Assembly (NCBI RefSeq): GCF_004336745.1
Contig: NZ_SJXD01000025.1
Coordinates: 186,001 to 250,000, forward strand
From: Roseococcus sp. SYP-B2431
GTDB lineage: Bacteria > Pseudomonadota > Alphaproteobacteria > Acetobacterales > Acetobacteraceae
Reading direction: 5' to 3'
Length of the DNA stretch: 64,000 nucleotides
A program made the position numbers and the translations under genes. The notes beneath the pieces are model-generated. The model searched no databases, was not told where the DNA came from, and saw only the letters and a program-made list of their open reading frames with translations. This document shows positions 33,242-45,935 of the stretch, in pieces; positions within the stretch are counted from its first letter, which is position 1; every line of letters starts with the position of its first letter.

Positions 33242-35239
33242 GTGCTGACGCTGCTGGGCCTCTGCTTCCTAGCGCTGCTGGGCCTCGCGGTGTGGGGTGG
33301 CTCCGGGCGGGCGCCGCGGGCCATGTTCCTGGGCTGCGCGGCCTGCATGGCGGGACTTGGCCTCGTCGGCGGCGCGGCGCTGACCGGCCTCGGCCTTCCG
33401 GCGACGCCCCTGCCGATCGGGCCGCCATGGGCGCCCTCGCTGATCGCCGTGGACGCGCTGTCGGGCTGGTTCCTGCTGATCCTGGCGCTCGTCGGCCTGC
33501 CGGCCGCGCTCTTCGCCGCTGCCTCGCCGGCCCCGCCGCGCGCCGAGGGCGCGGCGTTTCCGCTCTTCCTGGCGGGAATGGCGGGGGTGCTCGTCGCGGC
33601 CGACGGGTTCTCGATGCTGCTGGGCTTCGAGGCCATGTCGCTCGCCTCCTGGGGGTTGATCGCGGCGCGGCATCCGCGCGGCCCCGGCCGGCGGACGGCG
33701 CGGCTCTACCTGGGCTTCGCGATCTTCTCCGGCCTCTGCCTGATCGCCGGCTTCGCGCTGCTGGCCCCGGCCGGGCTGAGCTTCGCCGCGATCCGGGCCG
33801 CGCCGCCGGAGGGCTGGCGGGCCGGGGTCGTGCTGATGCTCGTGCTGCTCGGCGCTGGCTCCAAGATGGGCCTGGCGCCGTTCCACGTCTGGCTGCCCCT
33901 GGCCCATCCGGCGGCGGCGACGCCGGCCTCGGCGCTGATGTCGGGCGCGATGGTGAAGGTCGCGCTCTACGTGATGTTGCGCATGCTGCTGGATCTTTCC
34001 GGCCCCGCGCAACCTCTCTGGTGGGGGCTGCCGCTGGTGGCGGCCGGCGCCGCGACGGCGCTGATCGGCGGCCTGCGCGCCAATCTGGAGCAGGACATCA
34101 AGGCGGCGCTGGCCTGCTCCACGCTGGAGAACATGGGCCTGATGGTGATCGGGATCGGCCTCGCGCTCGTCTTTCGCGGCGCCGACCTGCGGCCGCTGGC
34201 GGCGCTGGCCCTGGCGGCGGTGCTGCTGCATGCGCTGAACCACGCCGGCTTCAAGGCGCTGCTCTTCCTCTGCGCGGGCGCGGTCGCCAGCCTCGCCGGC
34301 AGCCGCGACCCGGACCGGCTGGGCGGGCTGATCCACCGCATGCCCTGGGTGGCGGGCTGCGCCCTGCTGGGCGCCGCCTCGGCCGCCGCGCTGCCGCCCT
34401 TCTCCGGCTTCGCGAGCGAGTGGCTGCTGCTGCAGTCGCTGATCCAGGGCTGGCGGGTGGCGGAGATGTCCGTCCAGCTCCTCGCGGCGGCCACGCTGGC
34501 GGTGGCCGGCATGGCGATCGGGCTGGCGGCGGCGGCGATGGTGCGGTTCGCGGGCCTCGTCTTCCTCGGCCGGCCGCGCACGCCCATGGCCGCAGGCGCG
34601 CGGGACGCGACGGGGCTGATGCGGGCGGCGCTGCTGGTCCCGGCCGTCGCGAGCGCGGCGCTGGCGATCCTGGCCGCGCCCGTTCTCGCGCTCGGGGGCG
34701 GCGCGATCGCCGTCCTGCTGGGCCCCAATGCCCGTGCCCCCGTCGCGGGCTTCGATCTCGCTCTGGGCGAGGTGGGCGCCCGCTACGCGCCCTGGGCCGT
34801 GGCGGGGCTGCTGGCGCTCGCGACCGTGCTGATTCTCCTGGCCGTGAAGAATCGCTCGAAGCATGAGCCCGTCCGCGGCCCGGCCTGGGATTGCGGTTTC
34901 CTGCCGCCGCCCGCGCATCTGCCCTTCGGCGATCCGCTCAGCCAGGTGAGCGCCGCGGGCCTCGGGCAGCCCATACGCCGGAGCCTCGGCGCCGTCGCGC
35001 TGACCTTGTCCGAGCGGCATGGGGCGGCGCCGCCCGGCTCGCCGCAGCCCGCGACGCTGCGCGTGGAGGCGGAGGATCGGGGCTTCAGCCATGTCCTCCA
35101 GCCGCTCAGGCGTCTGCGTCAGGCCCTGTCCCGCGAGGCGGAGGCGCTGCGGAACCTCACCCTGCGCGCCTATCTCTCGATTTCGTTCGGCACGCTGGTC
35201 CTGCTGCTGGCGCTGGTCGCCTGGCTGGAGCGCGAATGA
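33242..35239 (+). CDS. hyfB: Hydrogenase-4 subunit B-like antiporter module
   Basis: 665 residues, mostly membrane helices of the Mrp/NuoL-M-N proton-antiporter family. L-G-F-E-A-M-S-L carries the conserved Glu of helix 5, G-S-K-M-G-L-A-P-F-H-V-W-L-P the Lys/His helix, and the long C-terminal extension with G-P-A-W-D-C-G-F is specific to HyfB/HycC. The start is GTG 33242 after GAGAGGGGG. It leads an operon with four-base overlaps (hyfB, C, E, F, G, VOC, I), so the products should assemble together. Confidence 0.92.
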   Translation: MLTLLGLCFLALLGLAVWGGSGRAPRAMFLGCAACMAGLGLVGGAALTGLGLPATPLPIGPPWAPSLIAVDALSGWFLLILALVGLPAALFAAASPAPPRAEGAAFPLFLAGMAGVLVAADGFSMLLGFEAMSLASWGLIAARHPRGPGRRTARLYLGFAIFSGLCLIAGFALLAPAGLSFAAIRAAPPEGWRAGVVLMLVLLGAGSKMGLAPFHVWLPLAHPAAATPASALMSGAMVKVALYVMLRMLLDLSGPAQPLWWGLPLVAAGAATALIGGLRANLEQDIKAALACSTLENMGLMVIGIGLALVFRGADLRPLAALALAAVLLHALNHAGFKALLFLCAGAVASLAGSRDPDRLGGLIHRMPWVAGCALLGAASAAALPPFSGFASEWLLLQSLIQGWRVAEMSVQLLAAATLAVAGMAIGLAAAAMVRFAGLVFLGRPRTPMAAGARDATGLMRAALLVPAVASAALAILAAPVLALGGGAIAVLLGPNARAPVAGFDLALGEVGARYAPWAVAGLLALATVLILLAVKNRSKHEPVRGPAWDCGFLPPPAHLPFGDPLSQVSAAGLGQPIRRSLGAVALTLSERHGAAPPGSPQPATLRVEAEDRGFSHVLQPLRRLRQALSREAEALRNLTLRAYLSISFGTLVLLLALVAWLERE

Positions 35240-36201
35240 TGCTCGTGGCCTTCGGCAGCCTCATCACGCAGCTCCTGCATGTCGCGCTGATGCTGGCGGC
35301 GGCGCCGGTGATCGTGGGTGCGGTTCGGTGGCTGAAGGCGCGGCTGATGGGGCGGCGCGGGCCGCATCCCCTCCAGCCCTGGCGCGACCTCCTCAAGCTT
35401 CTCCGCAAGCGCCCCGTCCTGGCCGAGACCGCGAGCGTCGTCTCCCGCGTCGCACCCTACCTCGCGCTCGGCGCCACGACCCTGGCCGCCGCGCTGGTCC
35501 CGAGCTTCGCCCAGGGCATGTGGCTGGCGCCGCTCGCCGACCTCGTGCTCATCGGCGGATTGCTGGCGCTGGCCCGCGTCGCGCTGGCACTGAACGGGCA
35601 CGACGCCGGCACGCCCTTCGGCGGCATGGGCGCCGCGCGCGAGATGACCTTCGCCGTCTTCGCCGAGCCCGCGCTGCTGGTCTGCGTGATGGTCTTCGCC
35701 GTCCTGGCCGGCGGCTCCAACCTCGACGCGATCGGCGCCGCCCTGCGCGATGGGGCCCTGGGCCTGCGCGTCTCGCTGCTCTTCGCCGGCCTGGCGCTCG
35801 TCGCGGTGATGCTGGCCGAGAACGCCCGCATCCCGGTGGACAATCCGGCGACGCATCTGGAGCTCACCATGGTGCATGAGGCGATGCTGCTGGAGGCCTC
35901 GGGCCGGCATCTCGCCGTCTGGGAGATGCAGGCGGCGCTGAAGCTGACGCTGTGGTTCGCGCTGCTCGCCGCGATCTTCCTGCCCTTCGGCACGGCACCG
36001 GCCGGAAGCGGACCGCTGGCCTGGGCGGCCGGACTGGGCCTCTGGGGGCTGAAGATGGGCCTGCTGGCCCTCGGGCTGGCCTTCTTCGAGAGCGCCATCG
36101 CGAAGATGCGCGTCTTCCGCGTGCCGGATTTCCTGGGCGGCGCCCTGCTGCTGGCGCTGCTCGCCGCCGCGCTCATCTTCGTCTCGACAGGATTGGCCTG
36201 A
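35236..36201 (+). CDS. hyfC: Hydrogenase-4 subunit C-like (NuoH/HycD family)
   Basis: 321 residues with about eight helices. The G-P-H-P-L-Q-P-W-R-D-L-L-K-L-L-R-K segment is the cytoplasmic loop that connects the membrane arm to the iron-sulphur module, and E-N-A-R-I-P-V-D-N-P-A-T-H-L-E-L-T-M-V-H-E is the conserved acidic loop of NuoH/HycD. This is the link subunit in energy-converting complexes. The ATG at 35236 overlaps the hyfB stop. Confidence 0.93.
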   Translation: MMLVAFGSLITQLLHVALMLAAAPVIVGAVRWLKARLMGRRGPHPLQPWRDLLKLLRKRPVLAETASVVSRVAPYLALGATTLAAALVPSFAQGMWLAPLADLVLIGGLLALARVALALNGHDAGTPFGGMGAAREMTFAVFAEPALLVCVMVFAVLAGGSNLDAIGAALRDGALGLRVSLLFAGLALVAVMLAENARIPVDNPATHLELTMVHEAMLLEASGRHLAVWEMQAALKLTLWFALLAAIFLPFGTAPAGSGPLAWAAGLGLWGLKMGLLALGLAFFESAIAKMRVFRVPDFLGGALLLALLAAALIFVSTGLA

Positions 36202-36869
36202 TGGGTTTCGGCCAGCTCCCCTACGACGTGGCGCATGTGCTGGGCGGCGCCATGCTGCTCGTCTCCTTCGTGCTGCTCTATCAGCGGCGGATCGCGGCGC
36301 TGGTGAACGCGCTGGCCCTGCAAGGCTGCCTCCTCGCCGCCGCCGCCGTCTGGCAGGGTTACGTGCAGGGCGCGCCGCAGCTCTACGTCACCGGGCTGAT
36401 CGCGCTCGCGGCCAAGGGCATCGCCATCCCGGTCTTCCTGCACCGGATGATGCGGAGCCGCATGCCGGACCGCGCGGTCGAGCCCGTCGGCAGCATCGGC
36501 CTCTGCATGCTGGGCGGCGTGCTGCTGGTGGCGCTGGCCATCCTGGTCGTGCTGCCGGCCACCACCGGCGCGCGTGCCCTGGCGCGCGAGGACCTCGCCA
36601 TCGCGCTCTCCATCGTGCTGCTCGGGCTGCTGACCATGATCACGCGGCGCAGCGCGCTCGGCCAGGTCGCGGGGCTGATGACGCTGGAAAACGGGCTGGT
36701 GCTCGGCGCCGTCGGCGTGGCCGGGATGCCGCTGGTGATCGAGCTCTCGACCGCGGGCCTGGTCCTGGTCATCATCGTCATCGCCGGCTTCTTCGCGCGG
36801 CTGCTGCGCGAGCGCTTCGACAGCCTCGACACCGACATGCTGCACCCGCACCGGGGCGAGGGCCAATGA
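36201..36869 (+). CDS. hyfE: Hydrogenase-4 component E-like
   Basis: 222 residues with about seven hydrophobic helices. HyfE corresponds to NuoK with extra helices: the Glu-bearing segment M-T-L-E-N-G-L-V-L-G-A (about residue 157) matches the conserved proton-path Glu of NuoK. It begins on the last base of the hyfC stop and ends overlapping hyfF. The C-terminus R-E-R-F-D-S-L-D-T-D is cytoplasmic. Confidence 0.9.
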   Translation: MGFGQLPYDVAHVLGGAMLLVSFVLLYQRRIAALVNALALQGCLLAAAAVWQGYVQGAPQLYVTGLIALAAKGIAIPVFLHRMMRSRMPDRAVEPVGSIGLCMLGGVLLVALAILVVLPATTGARALAREDLAIALSIVLLGLLTMITRRSALGQVAGLMTLENGLVLGAVGVAGMPLVIELSTAGLVLVIIVIAGFFARLLRERFDSLDTDMLHPHRGEGQ

Positions 36870-38287
36870 GCCTCGCCGCCCTCATCGTCCTGCTGCCGCT
36901 GCTGGCGGCGCTTCTGCTGGCCGCGCTGCCGGGCCAGGCCGTCCGGCTAAACATCGCGGCCTCGGCCGGCTCGCTCGCCCTGGCGCTGCTGCTGCTGGCC
37001 GAAGGGCCGGGCGGGGCGGGCCTGCTGCGGCCCGACGCGCTTAACCAGCCGCTGGTGCTGATCGCGTCCCTCGTCGGCCTCGGCACCGCGATCTTCTCCG
37101 CGCAGGACGTGGCGCACGAGAATTTCGACCGCCGGCGCATGCGCTGGTTCCACGCGGCCTTCCAGGGCTTCATGGCGACGCATTTCCTCGCCCTGCTCTC
37201 CGACAATCTGGGCATCATGTGGGTGGCCATCGAGGCCGGCACGCTGGCCTGCGTGCTGATGGTGGCGCTGCACCGCACGTCGGCGGCGCTCGAGGCCGCG
37301 TGGAAGTTCTTCATCCTGTGCAGCGTGGGCATCGCGCTGGCGCTCTTCGGCATCATCGTGCTGGCGCTGGCCGCGCAGCCGCTGCTGGGCCATGGCGAGC
37401 AGCTCTCCTTCGCCGCGCTGCGGCTGGCCGCCCAGGGCGCCGACCCGGCGCTGCTCAACCTGGCCTTCGTCTTCCTGCTGGTGGGCTTCGGCACCAAGGC
37501 CGGGCTGGTGCCGCTGCATTCCTGGCTGCCCGACGCGCATGCCGAGGGCCCGACGCCCATCGCCGCCGTGCTCTCGGGGCTGCTGCTCAACGCGGCCATG
37601 CTCGGCATCCTCCGCAGCAAGGCGGTCGTGGGCGCGAATGCCGAGGTCATCCCGCCGGGCGGCTTCCTGATCGCGCTGGGCCTGGCCTCGCTGCTGCTGG
37701 CGGGCTTCTCGCTGTGGCGGCGGCGCGACGCGAAGCGCCTCTTCGGCTGGAGCAGCATCGAGCATATGGGCATCGCGACCATCGCCTTCGGGATCGGCGG
37801 CGTGCCCGGACACATGGCGGGGCTGCTGCATCTCTGGGGCCATTCGCTGGTGAAGTCGGCCGCCTTCTTCGCGATCGGCCGGGCCGCACGGATCAAGGGC
37901 GGCCAGACGATGGACGCGATCGGCGGCCTCGTCGGGACGCATCCCATGCTGGGCTGGGGCCTTGCCATGGCCATGGCGGCGCTGGCTGGCCTGCCGCCCT
38001 TCAGCCTCTTCGCCTCCGAGCTCCTGCTGGCGACCGAGGCGGGGCGCGAGCGGCCGTGGTTGCTGCCGCTGCTGATCCTGGGGCTGCTCGTGGCCGGCAC
38101 GGCGCTGCTGCACAACATGCAGCGCCTCTGCTTCGGCGCGCCCACGCCCGAGCCGGCGCCGATGCGCGCTGGGATCGCCACCCTGCTGCCGCTCTGGACC
38201 AACCTCGTGCTCGCCGCGCTGCTGGCGCTGGCCCTGCCGGCGCCGCTCGCCGCCATGCTGCTGGACGCCGCGAGGGCGCTGTCATGA
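36866..38287 (+). CDS. hyfF: Hydrogenase-4 subunit F-like antiporter module
   Basis: 473 residues, fourteen or so helices. W-V-A-I-E-A-G-T-L-A holds the helix-5 Glu, W-K-F-F-I-L-C-S-V-G-I the helix-7 Lys, and V-G-F-G-T-K-A-G-L-V-P-L-H-S-W-L-P-D-A-H-A-E-G-P the broken-helix motif shared with NuoM/N. With HyfB it gives the complex two antiporter-type subunits, hence more than one possible ion path. HyfD, a third one in E. coli, is absent. Confidence 0.92.
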   Translation: MSLAALIVLLPLLAALLLAALPGQAVRLNIAASAGSLALALLLLAEGPGGAGLLRPDALNQPLVLIASLVGLGTAIFSAQDVAHENFDRRRMRWFHAAFQGFMATHFLALLSDNLGIMWVAIEAGTLACVLMVALHRTSAALEAAWKFFILCSVGIALALFGIIVLALAAQPLLGHGEQLSFAALRLAAQGADPALLNLAFVFLLVGFGTKAGLVPLHSWLPDAHAEGPTPIAAVLSGLLLNAAMLGILRSKAVVGANAEVIPPGGFLIALGLASLLLAGFSLWRRRDAKRLFGWSSIEHMGIATIAFGIGGVPGHMAGLLHLWGHSLVKSAAFFAIGRAARIKGGQTMDAIGGLVGTHPMLGWGLAMAMAALAGLPPFSLFASELLLATEAGRERPWLLPLLILGLLVAGTALLHNMQRLCFGAPTPEPAPMRAGIATLLPLWTNLVLAALLALALPAPLAAMLLDAARALS

Positions 38288-39783
38288 GCGCGCGCGCCAT
38301 CATCGAAAGCGGGCGCGCAGCCGGATGCCGGCCCTGGCCGCGCTACGTGCTGGACGCGGCCGGCTGGATGCGGCTGCGCGACGCGCTGGCGGCGGAGCCC
38401 GGCTTCGCCCTGCTCGGGCTATGGGGCGAGCCGGGCATGGCGCATGCCGCCTTCCTCGACGAAGCGCGGATGGAAGTGCTCCTGGCCTCCGTCGCCGCCG
38501 CGGAGGGCTGGATCCCGGCGCTCTCGCCCGTCCGTCCCTCCGCCTCCTGGTTCGAGCGGGGGCTGCGCGATCTCTGGGGCATCGGCGCGGAGGACGGCAC
38601 CGACGGCCGCCCCTGGCTCGACCATGGGCGCTGGCCGCTGCTGGGCCCGCTCTCCGGACGGCCCGCGCGGCACGAGCCCGACGCCTATCCAATGGAATTC
38701 CTGCCGGTGGAGGGCGAGGGCATCCACATGGTCCCCGTCGGGCCCATCCATGCCGGCATCATCGAGCCCGGCCATTTCCGCTTCCACATCCAGGGCGAGA
38801 TCATCGTCCGGCTGGAGGCGCGGCTGGGCTATCTGCACAAGGGCCTGCTCACCCTGATCCAGGGCAAGTCGCCGCGGGCGGCCGCGCGATTCGCGGGGCG
38901 GCTCTCGGGCGACAGCACGGTCGCGCACGGCATCGCCTTCGCCCGTGCGGCCGAGGCGGCGCTGGGCGTCGAGATCCCGTTGCGCGCGGTGGCGATCCGC
39001 GCCGCGATGCTGGAGCTCGAGCGGCTGCACAACCACCTCAACGACCTGGGCTTCATCGCCAACGACGCGGCCTTCGCGGTGATCCATGCGCGCATGGGCC
39101 TGCTGCGCGAGGGGCTGCTGCGCGCGAATGCCTTCGCCTTCGGCCACCGGCTGATGATGGACTGCGTGATGCCGGGCGGCATCGCGCAGGACCTGACGCA
39201 GGACGGCATCGCGACGCTGCTCGGCGCGCTCGCCACCGTCGCGGCGGAACTGCCCGTGCTGCTCCGCCACTACGAGGAGCATGCGAGCCTGCAGGACCGC
39301 GTGCTGGGCACCGGGGTCATGAGCGCCGAGATCGTCGCGGCCTTCGCGCCGGGCGGCGTGGTCGGCCGCGCGGCGGGGCGCGCCTTCGATGCGCGGCTGC
39401 TCTCGGGCGAGCTGCCGCCGGGCGGGGTGATCGCCCAGGCCGGCGCCGATGTCGATGCCCGCTGGCGCCAGCGCCACGCCGAGGCGCTGCAATCCATCGC
39501 CCTGCTGCAATCCTGGCTGCCCGCGCTGCCGGAGGGCGAGGCCCTTACCACCCCCATGCCCCATGCGGGCGGCGAGGGCGTGGCGCTGGTCGAGGGATTC
39601 CGCGGCGAGTGCCTGGCCTGGATGCGGCTGGACGACGGTGGGCTCATCGAGGCCTGCTACCTGCGCGACCCGTCCTGGCTGCACTGGCCGCTGCTGGAAG
39701 CCGCGGTGATCGGCAATATCCTCGCCGACTTCCCGCTCATCAACAAAAGCATCAATGGCAGCTACAGCGGAGTGGACCTGTGA
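38284..39783 (+). CDS. hyfG: HyfG-like large subunit lacking [NiFe] ligands
   Basis: 499 residues: a NuoC-like domain (about 1-140) fused to a NuoD/HycE-like domain. Active group 4 hydrogenases bind nickel by two C-x-x-C pairs. Here the first pair reads S-G-D-S (Ser208, Ser211; R-L-S-G-D-S-T-V-A-H) and the second D-P-S-W-L-H (Ser464, His467), so all four cysteines are gone. The rest is well preserved (G-Y-L-H-K-G, H-N-H-L-N-D-L-G). It should be a non-hydrogenase homologue like the Ehr (energy-converting hydrogenase-related) complexes, which also lack the site. Electron donor unknown. Confidence 0.88.
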   Translation: MSARAIIESGRAAGCRPWPRYVLDAAGWMRLRDALAAEPGFALLGLWGEPGMAHAAFLDEARMEVLLASVAAAEGWIPALSPVRPSASWFERGLRDLWGIGAEDGTDGRPWLDHGRWPLLGPLSGRPARHEPDAYPMEFLPVEGEGIHMVPVGPIHAGIIEPGHFRFHIQGEIIVRLEARLGYLHKGLLTLIQGKSPRAAARFAGRLSGDSTVAHGIAFARAAEAALGVEIPLRAVAIRAAMLELERLHNHLNDLGFIANDAAFAVIHARMGLLREGLLRANAFAFGHRLMMDCVMPGGIAQDLTQDGIATLLGALATVAAELPVLLRHYEEHASLQDRVLGTGVMSAEIVAAFAPGGVVGRAAGRAFDARLLSGELPPGGVIAQAGADVDARWRQRHAEALQSIALLQSWLPALPEGEALTTPMPHAGGEGVALVEGFRGECLAWMRLDDGGLIEACYLRDPSWLHWPLLEAAVIGNILADFPLINKSINGSYSGVDL

Positions 39784-40154
39784 TGCAGAGCGTGACGCCC
39801 ATCCTGCGCATCTTCGACCTCGCGAAGACGCGCGAATTCTATATCGACTATCTCGGCTTCGCCTGGGACTGGGAGCATCGCTTCGACGACAATGCGCCGG
39901 TCTACGCGCAGGTCTCGCGCGACGGCGTGGTGCTGCACCTGTCCGAGCATCACGGCGACTGCTGCCCGGGCACGGCTTTCCGCATCCTCTGGCCGGACAT
40001 CGCCGCTTTTCACGCCGAGATTTCCGCGAAGAACTATCGCTATGCGCGGCCGGGGCTGGAGACGGTGCCCTGGGGCGAGCGGCAGGTCCGCATCCAGGAT
40101 CCGTTCCACAACCGGCTGGTCTTCTGGACGCCGGACGCGGCGGCGGCGGGCTGA
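39783..40154 (+). CDS. VOC/glyoxalase superfamily protein
   Basis: 123 residues with the beta-alpha-beta-beta-beta repeat of the vicinal oxygen chelate fold: T-P-I-L-R-I-F-D-L-A-K-T-R-E-F-Y-I-D-Y-L-G-F at the start, G-V-V-L-H-L-S-E-H-H-G-D, and I-Q-D-P-F-H-N-R-L-V-F at the end. It resembles the bleomycin-resistance-like glyoxalase group. It is embedded, with four-base overlaps on both sides, between the large and small subunit genes of the Hyf-like complex, which has no counterpart in E. coli hyf or hyc operons. Confidence 0.85.
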   Translation: MQSVTPILRIFDLAKTREFYIDYLGFAWDWEHRFDDNAPVYAQVSRDGVVLHLSEHHGDCCPGTAFRILWPDIAAFHAEISAKNYRYARPGLETVPWGERQVRIQDPFHNRLVFWTPDAAAAG

Positions 40155-40672
40155 TGCTCTGGCCCAAGCTCGCCCGCTGCCTGGTCTCGCGCCCGCTCAC
40201 CGATCCGCCGCCGCCGGTCGCGCCCGAGATCGTGGCCGAGCTGCGCGCGCGGCTGGACGAGGCGGCGCAGGCGCGGCTCGGCCGCTCGCTCGCCATCCGC
40301 CAGGTGGATGCCGGAAGCTGCAACGCCTGCGAGCTCGAGATCAACGCGCTGCAAAACGTGGTGCATGACCTGGAGCGCTTCGGCCTGCGCTTCGTGGCGA
40401 GCCCGCGCCATGCCGATATCCTGCTCGTCACCGGCCCGCTGACGCGCAACATGGCCGAGGCGCTGTTGCGCGCCCGGGCCGCGACGCCGGACCCGATGTG
40501 GGTGGTGGCGCTCGGCGACTGCGCGGTGGATGGTGGCGTCTTCAAGGGCAGCTACGCCGTGCTCGGGGGCGTCGAGGCCGCGCTGCCGGTGGACCTCGTG
40601 ATCCCCGGCTGCCCGCCTTCGCCGACGCAGATTCTCGAAGGGCTGGTGGCGCTGGTGGAGGCGCATGGGTGA
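40154..40672 (+). CDS. hyfI: HyfI/NuoB-like [4Fe-4S] small subunit
   Basis: 172 residues. Four cluster ligands are intact in hydrogenase style: C-N-A-C near residue 56-59, Cys in L-G-D-C-A-V-D-G-G and Cys in P-G-C-P-P-S-P-T. In complex I the first pair is adjacent (C-C); the C-x-x-C here groups it with Hyf/Hyc/Ech small subunits. An intact proximal cluster beside a large subunit with no nickel site implies that electrons still flow, but from a different donor. Last gene of the operon. Confidence 0.92.
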   Translation: MLWPKLARCLVSRPLTDPPPPVAPEIVAELRARLDEAAQARLGRSLAIRQVDAGSCNACELEINALQNVVHDLERFGLRFVASPRHADILLVTGPLTRNMAEALLRARAATPDPMWVVALGDCAVDGGVFKGSYAVLGGVEAALPVDLVIPGCPPSPTQILEGLVALVEAHG

Positions 40673-40860: not shown

Positions 40861-41448
40861 TCAAGGGCTGCCGGCGAGCTCCAGCGTCACCTTGCGGCGG
40901 ATCGCGACGGCGAAGCTCGGCCAGTCGGGCGCCTCCATCGCGAATCCGCCGGAGGTCACGGCATGCTCGCGCAGCCACGCGCCGGCGCGGGGCGAGCCTA
41001 CGCCGATGGCATTGATCCGCACGCCGCGCTCCTCGGCGCGCGCCCGCGCCTCCCGCGCGCGCTGCGCATTGGCCTCGCCGTCGGTGGCGAGGTCGATCAC
41101 CTGCTGCTCGGCCGCGCAGGGTGCGGCGTCCAGCCGGTCCATCGCGACCAGGAGCGCGCCGCCGAGATTCGTGCCGGCCGGAAAGCCGCGCGGCGCCTCC
41201 CGCAGCGCGGCGGCGAAGATCGCGGCATCGGCCTGGTCGCGCAGGATGCGCCAGGCCACCATCTCGCGCGTATTGTCGCTGAAGGAGAGCGCCGTGACGG
41301 CGACGCCCTCGCCGCGCGCGATGGCGCGGTGAACGGCGATATCCTCGAAGGCGGCGGCATGGCCCTGCGTCTGCAGCTGCCACTCGGGCGGAAGGATGGA
41401 AGCGCTGGCGTCCAACAGCAGCACCAGCGCGACGGTGCACGCGCTCAT
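40861..41448 (-). CDS. DUF1194 (VWA-like) protein
   Basis: 195 residues. The opening A-L-V-L-L-L-D-A-S-A-S-I carries the D-x-S-x-S metal (MIDAS) motif of von Willebrand A domains; T-N-L-G-G-A-L (about residue 94) and I-D-L-A-T-D-G-E supply the Thr and Asp partners. DUF1194 proteins are mostly exported; a short hydrophobic start may serve as signal. It is the last gene of a four-gene leftward operon that begins at an SOS box. VWA domains bind proteins, so an assembly or adhesion role is possible. Confidence 0.85.
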   Translation of the reverse strand: MSACTVALVLLLDASASILPPEWQLQTQGHAAAFEDIAVHRAIARGEGVAVTALSFSDNTREMVAWRILRDQADAAIFAAALREAPRGFPAGTNLGGALLVAMDRLDAAPCAAEQQVIDLATDGEANAQRAREARARAEERGVRINAIGVGSPRAGAWLREHAVTSGGFAMEAPDWPSFAVAIRRKVTLELAGSP

Positions 41449-42371
41449 GGCAGCAGTTCCCAGAAGGTCGGCACGGGGTCGCCCGGTCGCTCGCCGCTCG
41501 CGAAGAGCGCGTAGGTATCGCCCAGATGGGCGATGAACGTGTCAGCGTGCCAGGCGTTGCCGCGCCTGGTCTGGATCAGGCCCCAGGGATTCCGCGAGTC
41601 GCGGTCCGCGCGCAGGCTGCCGGCATTGTAGGCGGCCGCCACCAGCGGCGGATCCAGGCGCGTCGTGGCCTGGGACTGTCGCTTGACATAGGCCGCGCCC
41701 GCCGCCGCCGAGACGGCGGGATCGAGCAGCCTCGCGCGGTCGAGCGTCGGATCGGCGAGCGCCTCGCGCGCGGTGGAGATCAGCGTCTGCATGAGCCCGG
41801 GCGAGACGCGATGCGGCGTCGCGGCGTCGGAGGTGAAGCCGGGCTCCTCGCGGACGGCCTCGGCGCGGCCGGCGCTCTCGGTGCAGGCGGTGGCGATCAG
41901 CAGCTCGACGGGCACGGCGAAGCGGAGGGCCGCCGCTTCAAGCGCGCCGCGATGGACGGACCAGCAGCGGGCGGCGACATCCGGCTTCGGGTTGCGGCGT
42001 GGCCCGGCCTCGCCCTCGACCTCGATGCCGGCCCGCGTCAGGCGCCAGCGGTTGCGGCCGGGGCCCACGGGCGCGCCGCGCCAGTCGAGCAGCGCGGGGA
42101 GGAAGGGACGCAGCCCCTCCTGCCAGGGGCGCTCGCGCTTCAGTGCCGGCTGGCCGGTGAGGCGCGTCCAGGTGAGGGGGCCGACGATGCCGTCGGCCGC
42201 CAGCCGCTCGCGCCGCTGATAGGCGGCCACGGCATCGCGCGTAGCGGGGCCGAAGGCGCCGTCGGCCTCGCCGCGCAGGGCGCCCGCGCGGATCAGTGCA
42301 AGCTGGGCGGTGCGGACATCCTCGCCGCGGATCAGCGGGAGGCGGAAGGCGAGGTTGCGCTCGAGCATCAT
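41445..42371 (-). CDS. Peptidoglycan-binding lytic transglycosylase-like protein
   Basis: 308 residues. Residues 10-70 form a PG_binding_1 domain (D-V-R-T-A-Q-L-A-L-I-R-A-G, F-G-P-A-T-R-D-A-V-A-A-Y-Q, D-G-I-V-G-P-L-T-W). The second half has SLT transglycosylase signatures: catalytic Glu in T-E-S-A-G, then S-P-G-L-M-Q-T and A-A-A-Y-N-A-G-S. There is no signal peptide, which is usual for phage-derived lysins. ATGA overlaps join it to both neighbours. The C-terminal text (R-N-P-W-G-L, F-I-A-H-L-G-D) is common in phage-associated relatives. Confidence 0.8.
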   Translation of the reverse strand: MMLERNLAFRLPLIRGEDVRTAQLALIRAGALRGEADGAFGPATRDAVAAYQRRERLAADGIVGPLTWTRLTGQPALKRERPWQEGLRPFLPALLDWRGAPVGPGRNRWRLTRAGIEVEGEAGPRRNPKPDVAARCWSVHRGALEAAALRFAVPVELLIATACTESAGRAEAVREEPGFTSDAATPHRVSPGLMQTLISTAREALADPTLDRARLLDPAVSAAAGAAYVKRQSQATTRLDPPLVAAAYNAGSLRADRDSRNPWGLIQTRRGNAWHADTFIAHLGDTYALFASGERPGDPVPTFWELLP

Positions 42372-42949
42372 GGCGTGGCTCCGCAATGGGGGATGGTGGC
42401 GATGCGGCGGGCGAGGTCGGCGGCCTCGCGCGATCCGGCGGGGGCGAGGGGCAGGCCGCCCTGGGCGGCGGCGCAGCGCCTCGCGTCGGCGCCGGCACCG
42501 GGGCGCGCGGCGAGCAGCGCGACGCGGGCGCCGAGCAGGGGCGAGTTCGCGGCAGAGGCGGCGCTCGCGGCCTCGGCCAGATCCTCGCCGGGCGGCGACA
42601 GCTCGGCCAGGCAGAGGCGGGCCTGGGCCTCGCCGGCCGCCAGCTTCGGGTCGGGCGTCAGCGCGCGGGCGGCGGCATAGGATTGGGCCGCGCAGGGCAG
42701 GTGGCCACGCAGCGCGGGGCATGCCGCGCCGGGCGCCCGCGCGGCCATGGCGAGGCGCATGCAGGCCTCGGCACGAAGCAGGTGCAGGCGCGGGCAGGCC
42801 GCGTGTCCGGCGGGGCAGGCGACCGGCTCGACGGCGATCTCGGCCGGAGCGGCGTGCCGCCAGCGATCGAGCTGCGCGATCGTCGGATCGACGACGGCGG
42901 CGAGAGGCGCGCAGCCGGCGAGGAGGAGCAGGACGGCGGGGCCCCTCAT
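42368..42949 (-). CDS. Cys-rich lipoprotein of the SOS operon
   Basis: 193 residues. The leader L-L-L-L-A-G-C (Cys13) is a lipobox. The mature protein has around eight further Cys, several in pairs (C-P-A-G-H-A-A-C-P, C-L-A-E, A-R-R-C), which suggests disulphides in the periplasm. Helical Ala-rich stretches dominate. I do not recognise the family. It lies between the membrane protein and transglycosylase genes with four-base overlaps; an outer-membrane partner in wall attack, like an o-spanin, is one possibility. Confidence 0.65.
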   Translation of the reverse strand: MRGPAVLLLLAGCAPLAAVVDPTIAQLDRWRHAAPAEIAVEPVACPAGHAACPRLHLLRAEACMRLAMAARAPGAACPALRGHLPCAAQSYAAARALTPDPKLAAGEAQARLCLAELSPPGEDLAEAASAASAANSPLLGARVALLAARPGAGADARRCAAAQGGLPLAPAGSREAADLARRIATIPHCGATP

Positions 42950-44373
42950 GGCGTCAGCTCCGCGAGCAGGGGGACGGGATCGGTGTGGCTCTCGCGCAGC
43001 TCGCCGAGCAGCAGAGCGAGCGCCTGGAGCGCGGCCTGCGCGGGCTCGCCGCCGGGCTGCGGCAGCACGGCGCGGGCGGCGGCAGCGGGACGGAGGCCGG
43101 GCGCGGCGCCGTTCAGCGACTGCGCGATGCGGGCCACGAGGTCGGGCGAGAGGTCGGCCTCCACGCGGTCCTCCAGCAGGGCGCGGCGGAATTCGGCGAG
43201 GCCCTGGGCGGCCTCGGCCGGACTCGCGAAGCCGGGGTAGCGGGCCCAGAGCCGCTCGGCCGCGTCCTCGCGCAGGCAGGTGTCGAGCAGGCCGGCGAGA
43301 AAGCCGGGCTCGGCGAGCCGGGGCGCGAAGAGGCGCGCGAAGACGGGCGCATCGGCGAGGCGGAGCTCGGCCGAAGCGGGGGTGATCGCGCCGGGCTCGA
43401 AGAGCGCCGGATCGTGCGGCGCTTCGAGGAGATGCGCCCGGAAGCGGCGCCAGGCGGCCGAGCCCAGATTCCAGCCCAGGCCGAGCAGCATCGCGACGCC
43501 GGCCAGCGGCCCGCCCGCGGCGGCCGGCAGCAGCGGCGCCGCGGCGCGGAGCAGCGAGGCGAGGGGGCTGCCGCTGCCCGTCAGCGCGGCCGAGGCGGAT
43601 TGGAGCGCGCCGAGCTCCGCCATGCCTGCCCCGCGGCCGCCGGCAGCGCGCGCGGCGCCGAGCGCCCGTTCCGCATCCTCCAGCCAGCCCTCCGCCTGGG
43701 GCGGGATGACGCCGGCCGGCAGGGCCGGGCCGAGGCGCTGGACCAGGATCCGGGCCACGGAGAGCTGGCGCTCCAGCGTGGCCATCGCCTCCGCGATGCG
43801 CGAGGGCTGGCCGGCCCGGGCGGCGGCGTCGCGCGCAGCCGCCTCGCTGGTGCGGAGCGTCTCGTTCGCGCGCTGCTGGCCCTCCAGCGCATCGCCCAGG
43901 CGGCGGGCGGCCTGGGCCTCGGGCGTGGAGGAGCGGGCCCCGAAATAATAGCCGAAGACGCCTGCGATGATGCCGTTCACGTAGCCGGCGATGGCGTCGT
44001 TCAGCGCCAGGGCCTGGCTGAAGAGCAGCAGCGGCAGGCCGATCACGCCCACGATCAGCGCCAGCAGCGCGCGCACGGTGCCCTCGGGCAAAGCGAGCGG
44101 GAGGTCGCGCAGCGCGGCGATCTGCTCGGGGGTCGTGGCCGGGTCGCGCAGCAGGGTGAAGCAGCGCGAGGCCAGCCACCACAGGAAGGCCGCGAAGCCG
44201 AGGCCGACCAGGAAAACCAGCAGCGCGGCCAGCGTTCCCGGCGTGCTGAGGAGGGCGGCCGGTCCGATCCCGGCCAGCCGGGCGCAGAACAGGATGGAGA
44301 CGGCGGACAGGCCGATCAGCAGGATCTTCAGGGGGGCGGCGAGGAAGCTGGGCAAAGGGAGACCTCCAGGCAT
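42946..44373 (-). CDS. Polytopic membrane protein, first gene of the SOS operon
   Basis: 475 residues. Membrane helices are expected at about 15-38, 47-68, 101-122 and 127-146, with another apolar stretch at 285-305. Between lies a helical, coiled-coil-like segment (150-215) and after it a 150-residue soluble tail containing L-L-E-A-P-H-D-P-A-L-F and a later R-R-A-L-L-E-D-R-V-E-A-D-L. No known domain is recognised. The ATG at 44373 starts 13 bases after the SOS box, so LexA would block transcription directly. Confidence 0.7.
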   Translation of the reverse strand: MPGGLPLPSFLAAPLKILLIGLSAVSILFCARLAGIGPAALLSTPGTLAALLVFLVGLGFAAFLWWLASRCFTLLRDPATTPEQIAALRDLPLALPEGTVRALLALIVGVIGLPLLLFSQALALNDAIAGYVNGIIAGVFGYYFGARSSTPEAQAARRLGDALEGQQRANETLRTSEAAARDAAARAGQPSRIAEAMATLERQLSVARILVQRLGPALPAGVIPPQAEGWLEDAERALGAARAAGGRGAGMAELGALQSASAALTGSGSPLASLLRAAAPLLPAAAGGPLAGVAMLLGLGWNLGSAAWRRFRAHLLEAPHDPALFEPGAITPASAELRLADAPVFARLFAPRLAEPGFLAGLLDTCLREDAAERLWARYPGFASPAEAAQGLAEFRRALLEDRVEADLSPDLVARIAQSLNGAAPGLRPAAAARAVLPQPGGEPAQAALQALALLLGELRESHTDPVPLLAELTP

Positions 44374-44386
44374 GGGAAGGCCATAT

Positions 44387-44401
44387 GTTCTTCTTTTGTT
44401 C
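44387..44401 (-). promoter_or_regulatory. LexA/SOS box, GTTC-N7-GTTC
   Basis: A perfect direct repeat, GTTC at 44387-44390 and GTTC at 44398-44401 with seven bases between (GAAC-N7-GAAC on the leftward strand). This is the LexA operator established for Rhodobacter, Caulobacter and rhizobia. It stands in a 60-base A+T-rich island in otherwise G+C-rich DNA, just before the membrane-protein ATG. The divergent halogenase-like gene starts 233 bases away and is less likely to be controlled. Confidence 0.75.
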
Positions 44402-44633
44402 TCATTTGCAAGCAAAATCAGGAAGGATGTCCTACGAGCGAACCGTCGCGGACTTATCGGCCGGTCCAGCGAGCGCCGGCAGGTGAAGACGTGCGGGCTG
44501 ACTTCCCGCGGCCACATTGGAGCGTCGCCGGAATGGACCGGCGCCGCCTGACCGCCTTCGCCGAGCCGTCCGCTTCCGCCCCGCCGACCGGTGCGCACTT
44601 GACGCTCGCGGCGCGGGACAGGATTTTCCCCCC

Positions 44634-45935
44634 ATGACGAACACCGCGTCGCCCGACATCCTGGTCATCGGCGGCGGCCCCGCCGGTTCCACCGCGGCCG
44701 CCCTCCTGGCCATGCGCGGGCGCGACACCCTGCTGGTCGAGAAGGAGGCGCATCCGCGCTTCCACATCGGCGAGAGCCTGCTGCCCGCCAATCTCGACAT
44801 TCTCGAACGCCTCGGCGTGCTGGAGGAGGTCCGCGACATCGGCGTCCACAAGCCCGGCGCGGAATTCGTCTCGGACCGCACCGGGCGCAGCTGCGCCTTT
44901 CCCTTCGCGCATGCGCTCAACAGGAACCGCACCCATGCGTGGCAGGTGAAGCGCGCCGAACTCGACGCGCTGCTCTTCGCCAATGCCCGCCGCAAGGGCG
45001 CGACGACGCTGGAGAACACCCGCGTCACCGACGTGCAGTTCGGCGCTCCCGGCGAGCGCGCGACGGTACGCGCGAGGACCGGGGGTGGCGAGGAGCTCAC
45101 CTTCCGCCCGCGTTACGTGCTGGACGCCTCGGGGCGGGACACCTTCCTCGCCGGCCGCATGCGGGTGAAGGCGATGAACAAGTACAACAACACCGCCGCC
45201 ATCTACGCGCATTTCCAGGGCGTCGAGCGACGGTCCGGCGAGCTGGACGGCTATATCAGCATCCACCTCGCCGAGGACGGATGGTTCTGGCTCATCCCGC
45301 TCCCCGGCGACGTCATGAGCATCGGTTTTGTCGGCAACCAATCGGCCTGGAAGGGCCGCAAGGGCACCCCGCAGGAGCTGTTCGAGGCGCGCATCGCCAG
45401 CAGCCCCACCGTCGCGGCCCGCACGCGCGGCGCCGAAATGGTCTCGGAGATCTACTCGACCGGCAACTACAGCTACCGCGCGCAGCAGGGCTGCGGCGAA
45501 GGGTTCCTGATGATCGGCGACGCCTATGGCTTCGTCGACCCGATGTTCTCCACCGGCGTGTTGATGGCCATGACGGCGGGCGAGCTGGGGGCGAAGGCCG
45601 CGCACGCCTGGCTGGACGACCCGGTCCAGGGCCATCGCCTGGCGCAGCGCACCAACCGCGAGCTGGCGCAGGCGATGGACCGCATCAGCTGGCTCATCTA
45701 CCGCATCAACGATCCGGTGATGCGCTCGCTCTTCATGGCGCCGCGCAACACGCTCTGGATGCGCGACGGCATCATCAACATGCTGGCCGGCAACCTGCGC
45801 GGCGATCCGCGCGCGGTGGTGCCGATCCTGAGCTTCAAGGCCGTGTTCCACACCCTCTCGGCACTGCACCGGATCGGGCTCGGCCCGGCCATGCCCGAGG
45901 CCCTGCCGGAACGCCTGCCGGCCGCGGCGGAGTGA
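44634..45935 (+). CDS. Flavin-dependent halogenase-like oxidoreductase
   Basis: 433 residues. FAD binds through I-G-G-G-P-A-G-S near residue 12. P-R-F-H-I-G-E-S-L-L-P is the usual halogenase/geranylgeranyl reductase-like block. Two points favour a halogenase: W217-F-W219-L-I-P, matching the W-x-W-x-I-P signature, and Lys73 in G-V-H-K-P-G-A-E-F at the place of the catalytic Lys of phenol/pyrrole halogenases. Xanthomonadin pigments are brominated aryl polyenes whose clusters include a halogenase, so proximity to the cluster at 46-60 kb is telling. A plain reductase is the alternative. Confidence 0.72.
   Translation: MTNTASPDILVIGGGPAGSTAAALLAMRGRDTLLVEKEAHPRFHIGESLLPANLDILERLGVLEEVRDIGVHKPGAEFVSDRTGRSCAFPFAHALNRNRTHAWQVKRAELDALLFANARRKGATTLENTRVTDVQFGAPGERATVRARTGGGEELTFRPRYVLDASGRDTFLAGRMRVKAMNKYNNTAAIYAHFQGVERRSGELDGYISIHLAEDGWFWLIPLPGDVMSIGFVGNQSAWKGRKGTPQELFEARIASSPTVAARTRGAEMVSEIYSTGNYSYRAQQGCGEGFLMIGDAYGFVDPMFSTGVLMAMTAGELGAKAAHAWLDDPVQGHRLAQRTNRELAQAMDRISWLIYRINDPVMRSLFMAPRNTLWMRDGIINMLAGNLRGDPRAVVPILSFKAVFHTLSALHRIGLGPAMPEALPERLPAAAE

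Follow-up and report, generated by a model that had tools for sequence, protein, structure and literature searches.

In the analysed window, a stretch of 64,000 nucleotides from Roseococcus sp. SYP-B2431 (contig NZ_SJXD01000025.1), four minus-strand genes, hereafter g1 to g4, run from about position 44355 to 40861 and are joined by 4-base overlaps. They are preceded, at 44387-44401, by a perfect match to the alphaproteobacterial LexA box GTTC-N7-GTTC (GTTCTTCTTTTGTTC; GAACAAAAGAAGAAC in gene sense, 44401-44387), as the original prediction made on this DNA had stated. Comparison of the homologous promoters strongly supports SOS control, which is very likely for this lineage but not for the operon family as a whole. 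As for the function, a host-encoded member of the SOS regulon is tentatively proposed, at somewhat short of an even chance, in which a gated peptidoglycan-cutting module would give damage-triggered lysis or the release of vesicles and DNA. What would be new is an SOS-controlled attack on the wall that is encoded by the host itself and has an unnamed membrane-protein family at its centre, SOS-triggered lysis being so far known from prophage-derived genes. If true, the operon would serve to test whether bacteria keep a DNA-damage programme of lysis or wall remodelling of their own, with lexA-less relatives as natural controls, and would provide a function for a membrane-protein family unmatched in the libraries searched. 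Neither the operon nor an Acetobacteraceae LexA regulon was found described in the literature covered, which leaves out most subscription journals.

A single bare match to the motif is near chance in a window of this size and proves little alone: 0.52 matches are expected in 64 kb, and at least one was present in 40 of 100 shuffled windows. The significance of the box comes instead from a genome-wide excess, from its score and, above all, from its conservation. The genome of the strain possesses 55 exact boxes vs. 25 for the reversed pattern, several of them adjoining genes which, by our reading of the translations, correspond to recA, radA, uvrA/ssb, imuA, parE, an lhr-type helicase, mmcB and YedK-type genes; its lexA and recA each carry the same kind of box. 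With a matrix derived from nine known-type SOS sites of this genome, the operon box scored 30.4, the nine sites themselves, each left out in turn, ranged from 9.7 to 29.4, and the second-best place in the window reached 15.4.

Concerning conservation, among the 58 homologous g1 promoters for which upstream DNA was available, 17 contain the exact box, for an expectation of 0.13 (derived from the same loci, with 7 boxes in 764,520 flanking bases) and none of the 58 with a control motif; many of these 17 promoters come from close relatives and do not represent 17 independent events. The 58 promoters exclude one locus without upstream DNA (L093), and L088, with an exact box upstream of the likely start, belongs to a count of 18/59 and falls outside the narrower interval used for 17/58. 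When box presence was placed on a 55-row g1 tree, from which loci with a g1 shorter than 300 aa were left out and where L093 was scored as box-less, six changes were required vs. 14.0 for shuffled labels, and none of 500 shuffles was as low. Across the promoters of ten congeners, stretches of three or more bases without any variation are limited to a TTG, the box together with its edges, and the ribosome-binding site. This TTG belongs to a possible -35 element, by our reading TTGCAA (44406-44411, minus strand), and further upstream a TAGGAC...TCCT element (44420-44434, minus strand) has nearly invariant AGGAC and TCC columns in the same ten congeners. The LexA box could possibly sit between the -35 and -10 elements; a consensus scan detected no promoter and no terminator.

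The box had been placed 13 bases before the first ATG of g1. The ATG at 44373 is indeed in frame at that distance, but it lies ahead of the ribosome-binding site GGAGG (44367-44363), and the start is probably the TTG at 44355 behind that site, 31 bases after the box, since it is at a TTG, GTG or ATG behind the GGAGG site that the alignment of the orthologues begins.

Within the genus, the box follows lexA. Among the 21 genomes of the genus set (G000-G020, including that of the strain itself), the LexA DNA-binding domain was detected in 14 (G000, G001, G002, G005, G006, G007, G008, G011, G012, G014, G015, G016, G019 and G020). It was not found in G003, G004, G009, G010 and G018, which are 91-100% complete, nor in the incomplete genomes G013 and G017. 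The operon promoter could be read in eleven of the 14 lexA-bearing genomes, and every one of these carries the exact box, including G011, in which the operon has decayed. As for the three others, G016 carries a variant operon with no box within the 18 kb examined, and g1 was not found in G001 and G002. In the five lexA-less genomes of high completeness, the exact box is present neither at the operon promoter (0/5) nor at recA, and the stricter pattern GTTCT-N5-TGTTC gave one to three matches per genome (0-1 for the reversed control); three lexA-bearing congeners gave 8 to 13 (control 0-2). These five genomes thus seem to form a lineage which has lost lexA and in which SOS-type boxes are nearly gone. 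In the g1 tree, which includes four of them, they make up one clade, so that the loss of the box counts as one event and not five. A CTGGCA block is common to their operon promoters. Rubritepida flocculans is one of the relatives without lexA, and Roseococcus pinisoli, an environmental relative, is one that bears it.

Outside the genus, lexA and the operon box occur together in G035 and G025, and one-mismatch forms of the box are, by our reading, visible in the promoters of the Rhodovarius group. The box is present at lexA itself in 10 of 11 lexA loci. At the recA promoter it was found in seven of ten lexA-bearing genomes (absent in G035, G056 and G064), and it is there an imperfect marker of the presence of LexA. 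Near g1 of the non-alphaproteobacterial loci L094, L110, L112, L118, L119, L121 and L130, neither the alphaproteobacterial box nor CTGT-N8-ACAG was found. Conservation of the box in orthologous promoters, which had been put forward as a check, therefore extends over the lexA-bearing part of the genus and becomes patchy beyond. A separate observation concerns 15 close relatives (L090, L091, L095-L099, L102-L108 and L111), where CCTTGACAAAATAGGAA replaces the LexA box in 14 of the 15 promoters (L111 differs), mostly within an inverted repeat TTCCT-N9-AGGAA.

The first gene, g1 (42946-44355, minus strand), codes for a membrane protein of 469 aa with four transmembrane segments and a large helical domain, which matches no known family. 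Its hydrophobic stretches lie at about residues 1-66 and 86-122, and the structural model (mean pLDDT, the predicted local distance difference test, 85.2; pTM, the predicted template modelling score, 0.61) shows helices at 3-27, 39-70, 91-111 and 120-141, followed by a long helix and a helical domain. Judging from the charges, this C-terminal domain of 330 residues is probably cytoplasmic. Residues invariant in 40 sequences include P86, P90, G92, R95, A96, Y137, F138 and G139. No PHROG or Pfam match was obtained at E-values up to 1, holin families included. The polytopic nature assigned to g1 is thus borne out, and its likeness to a holin holds for its position only, given its size, its helical domain of about 330 residues and the lack of a family match.

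The second gene, g2 (42368-42949, minus strand), codes for a cysteine-containing lipoprotein, as had been recognised: a lipobox is present in 33 of 35 homologues, and C13, C45 and C52 are invariant in 28 sequences. Its predicted structure is a TPR-like solenoid, which lends no support to the spanin-like role once suspected, and no family was matched in Pfam or PHROG searches.

As for g3 (41445-42371, minus strand), it is a signal-less lytic transglycosylase made of PG_binding_1 and SLT domains, in agreement with its earlier description as a lysin-like enzyme. E165, S166, G168, M194-Q195-T196 and Y248-N249-A250-G251, the catalytic residues among them, are invariant in 12 aligned sequences, and neither a signal peptide nor a hydrophobic N-terminus was found in 38 homologues (maximum of 1.46 vs. 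a minimum of 1.63 for the lipoproteins). Of these 38 proteins, 28 fit a narrow pattern designed for the catalytic motifs of SLT, three of the ten misses being of a Burkholderiales type with another domain. In the beta- and gammaproteobacterial loci L112, L118, L119 and L121, the SLT part is replaced by a second domain displaying CKET, GYG(I/L)FQYD and RYNG motifs, apparently a divergent lysozyme-like site; Pfam searches on L112 and L118 matched only the wall-binding domain. This swap of one domain for another, apparently lysozyme-like, supports wall cutting as the retained function.

The last gene, g4 (40861-41448, minus strand), codes for a DUF1194/VWA protein, the family match and a DxSxS motif being in accordance with the initial assignment; a signal peptide is not evident. 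A survey of type XI secretion system (T11SS) loci reports 19 of 102 DUF1194 proteins without signal peptide and gives the function of DUF1194 as not known (PMC12282271). Since g4 was found in five genomes only (G000, G015, G014, G018 and G009), the conserved core is g1-g2-g3, with g4 as an accessory gene; the predicted tightly overlapped operon and its four-gene order stand for the overlaps and the first three genes, g4 lying outside the conserved unit.

As for distribution, 23 of the 120 genomes searched carry g1, i.e. the genome of the strain, 17 of 20 congeners and five genomes of other genera, and a scan of the genome collection provided 59 loci. It is rare in wider, evenly drawn samples: a class-level one of 385 genomes added a single genome, with a match to the hairpin only, and a phylum-level one of 398 genomes added two, G720 at full length and another with the hairpin alone. 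The family recurs in Acetobacteraceae, part of the Betaproteobacteria and Methylomonas, the named hosts being, among others, Roseococcus, Rubritepida, Rhodovarius, Elioraea, Humitalea and Roseomonas-type metagenome-assembled genomes, together with Rhodocyclus, Derxia, Roseateles, other Burkholderiales, Methylomonas and Steroidobacter. The simple script used to call genes in relatives missed some of them (g2 of G007 was recovered by tblastn); the order g1-g2-g3 is fixed in the 26 loci where all three were called, the Methylomonas locus (L112) having the same order. The flanks of the operon look like housekeeping genes, with, by our reading, asd-like and pqq-like genes upstream in many congeners. 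In five loci of other genera (L066, L069, L089, L123 and L124), the operon lies near AmgK/MurU-like genes of wall recycling, accompanied by TsaE in four of the five.

From these features we infer the following course of events. LexA bound to the promoter box would repress the operon, and DNA damage would lift this repression. The g1 protein would then open or gate the inner membrane and give g3 access to the wall, with g2 acting as an adaptor on the periplasmic side and g4 as a VWA partner in some species. The likely outcome would be lysis, or release of vesicles and DNA, by part of the population, from ordinary chromosomal genes. On paper, a cytoplasmic wall enzyme encoded with a membrane protein of several transmembrane segments is comparable to the pair of holin and endolysin.

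Several points weigh against this proposal. No exact box was found in 41 of the 58 homologous promoters, among them those of the lexA-bearing genomes G064, G061 and G056 outside the genus. The g1 protein is unlike any holin family, and searches matched it to no known fold; g2 seems absent in L114 and G720 (L145), where g1 is directly followed by g3. In G011, where lexA and the box persist, only fragments of g1 and g3 are left and g1 is interrupted by a stop; the operon is therefore dispensable. Finally, the core has dN/dS ratios of 0.08-0.24 in three pairs among the five lexA-less genomes, and of 0.12-0.28 in three lexA-bearing pairs. Expression without LexA is thus tolerated, and purifying selection speaks against a cassette that simply kills. 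In the lexA-less genomes, either a different regulator has replaced LexA or g1 needs a second trigger. Since the operon is kept intact in these relatives, the g1 protein probably stays inactive until a trigger acts on it and does not kill the cell each time it is produced.

Among the known systems, explosive cell lysis of Pseudomonas aeruginosa (PMC4834629) is likewise RecA/SOS-dependent and relies on a cytoplasmic wall enzyme needing a membrane partner. It uses a pyocin/prophage holin and endolysin, whereas the present operon is not phage-derived as far as searched, its g1 is unrelated to known holins and its g2 is a TPR-like lipoprotein. Phage cassettes of holin, endolysin and spanin have in common with it the layout of a membrane protein, a lipoprotein and a signal-less wall enzyme; the operon differs by the lack of a match to holin and spanin families and of a phage context, and by the large soluble domain of g1. 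Within the scans made of 50,697 phage records, of plasmid records and of IMG/VR contigs, g1 had no relative, the resemblance of g3 to 40 phage records and 8 viral contigs is limited to parts of it, and a larger prophage, which would have spoken against the original prediction, was not seen. Without a holin family match, a phage context or phage relatives of g1, the operon does not qualify as a phage lysis cassette, and its location outside any phage structural cluster, among housekeeping-like neighbours, agrees with the original prediction.

The alternative which survives best, and which retains a real though lesser chance, is an SOS-controlled but non-lethal remodelling of the wall, in which g2 would scaffold g3, and g1 would export or anchor it, trimming the walls of elongating, division-arrested cells. 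TPR adaptors such as NlpI and CpoB scaffold wall-enzyme partners, and the operon resembles them in having an envelope lipoprotein with a TPR-like fold encoded with a wall hydrolase; it differs by the lack of a sequence match for g2, by a partner without signal peptide and by SOS control. Remodelling would also fit the purifying selection acting without LexA and the five loci near TsaE and wall-recycling genes. A wall enzyme acting in normal remodelling would, however, be expected to carry a signal peptide, which none of the 38 g3 homologues has.

The operon could also be a conflict-system effector, anti-phage or abortive, with a lineage-dependent trigger and with its transcription put under LexA in this genus. 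This improbable explanation draws on the variant locus of G016 (L070, 6715-14377), which has the gene order of the operon and, upstream, TPR-S and TIR-REC proteins. The G016 unit comprises a SLATT-like region before the g1 C-terminal domain, a g2-like stretch and a larger PG_binding-VanY-SLT enzyme. PMC7159879 presents SLATT as a predicted pore-forming effector, and the SLATT/TIR conflict systems treated there have in common with the operon a membrane effector with a helical domain; the window operon differs by having neither sensor nor SLATT match, and by its wall hydrolase and LexA control. The sparse occurrence of g1 over distant groups also points in this direction. Nevertheless, the G016 case is a single locus whose SLATT match does not reach the Pfam cut-off (20.7 vs. 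26.3 bits), no SLATT match was found for g1 of the window in Pfam or PADLOC, none of the four window proteins matched in PADLOC, and the neighbours elsewhere look like housekeeping genes. Weak PADLOC matches of two G016 proteins (PDC-S66 and TIR effector) and of g1 of L118 (LeoBC and PbeC) were not used as evidence. The G016 variant may be an uncharacterised conflict system, and it suggests, as a single case, that the N-terminal part of g1 is an exchangeable membrane effector. A broader scheme, rather unlikely in its entirety, would make the family a host-encoded, non-viral system of programmed lysis or abortive type, in which a gated effector with four transmembrane segments, a TPR-like lipoprotein and a wall-cutting enzyme stored in the cytoplasm were captured by SOS control in one lineage and by TIR-type sensing in another.

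Far less probable is a lysis module at the service of a prophage, a tailocin or a gene transfer agent (GTA) encoded elsewhere in the genome. SOS control and the holin/endolysin-like layout would suit it, and the lysis genes of RcGTA can reportedly lie apart from the structural cluster, which counts for this explanation. On the other side, GTA_TIM was found in none of the 21 genus genomes, vs. 6 of 120 genomes overall and a positive Caulobacter control, and a phage tail sheath is absent from the genome of the strain and from 16 of 20 congeners (present in four), a survey which covers contractile tailocins and not non-contractile ones or prophages. The GTA_holin_3TM search was uninformative, matching nowhere, controls included, and the service of a GTA, tailocin or prophage was set aside after these partial tests (GTA_TIM and sheath). 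The notion that the box is there by chance, or serves solely the divergent FAD-dependent gene at 44634, is barely tenable: the matches in shuffled windows and the position of the box between that gene and the g1 operon would allow it, but conservation in homologous promoters already contradicts it and, in congener neighbourhoods with a different upstream gene, the box stays with g1.

A g1-type hairpin was also detected in two otherwise unrelated small proteins. At L146 (3866-8504), a 119-aa protein with such a hairpin lies near a SMODS nucleotidyltransferase gene and an AAA gene on the opposite strand; the genes being on opposite strands, no link of the hairpin protein to the SMODS gene is claimed. 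Elsewhere in the window, the genes at 33242-40672, among which a large subunit (38284-39783) seems by eye to be without nickel-binding cysteine motifs, read like a hydrogenase-4/Ehr-type membrane complex.

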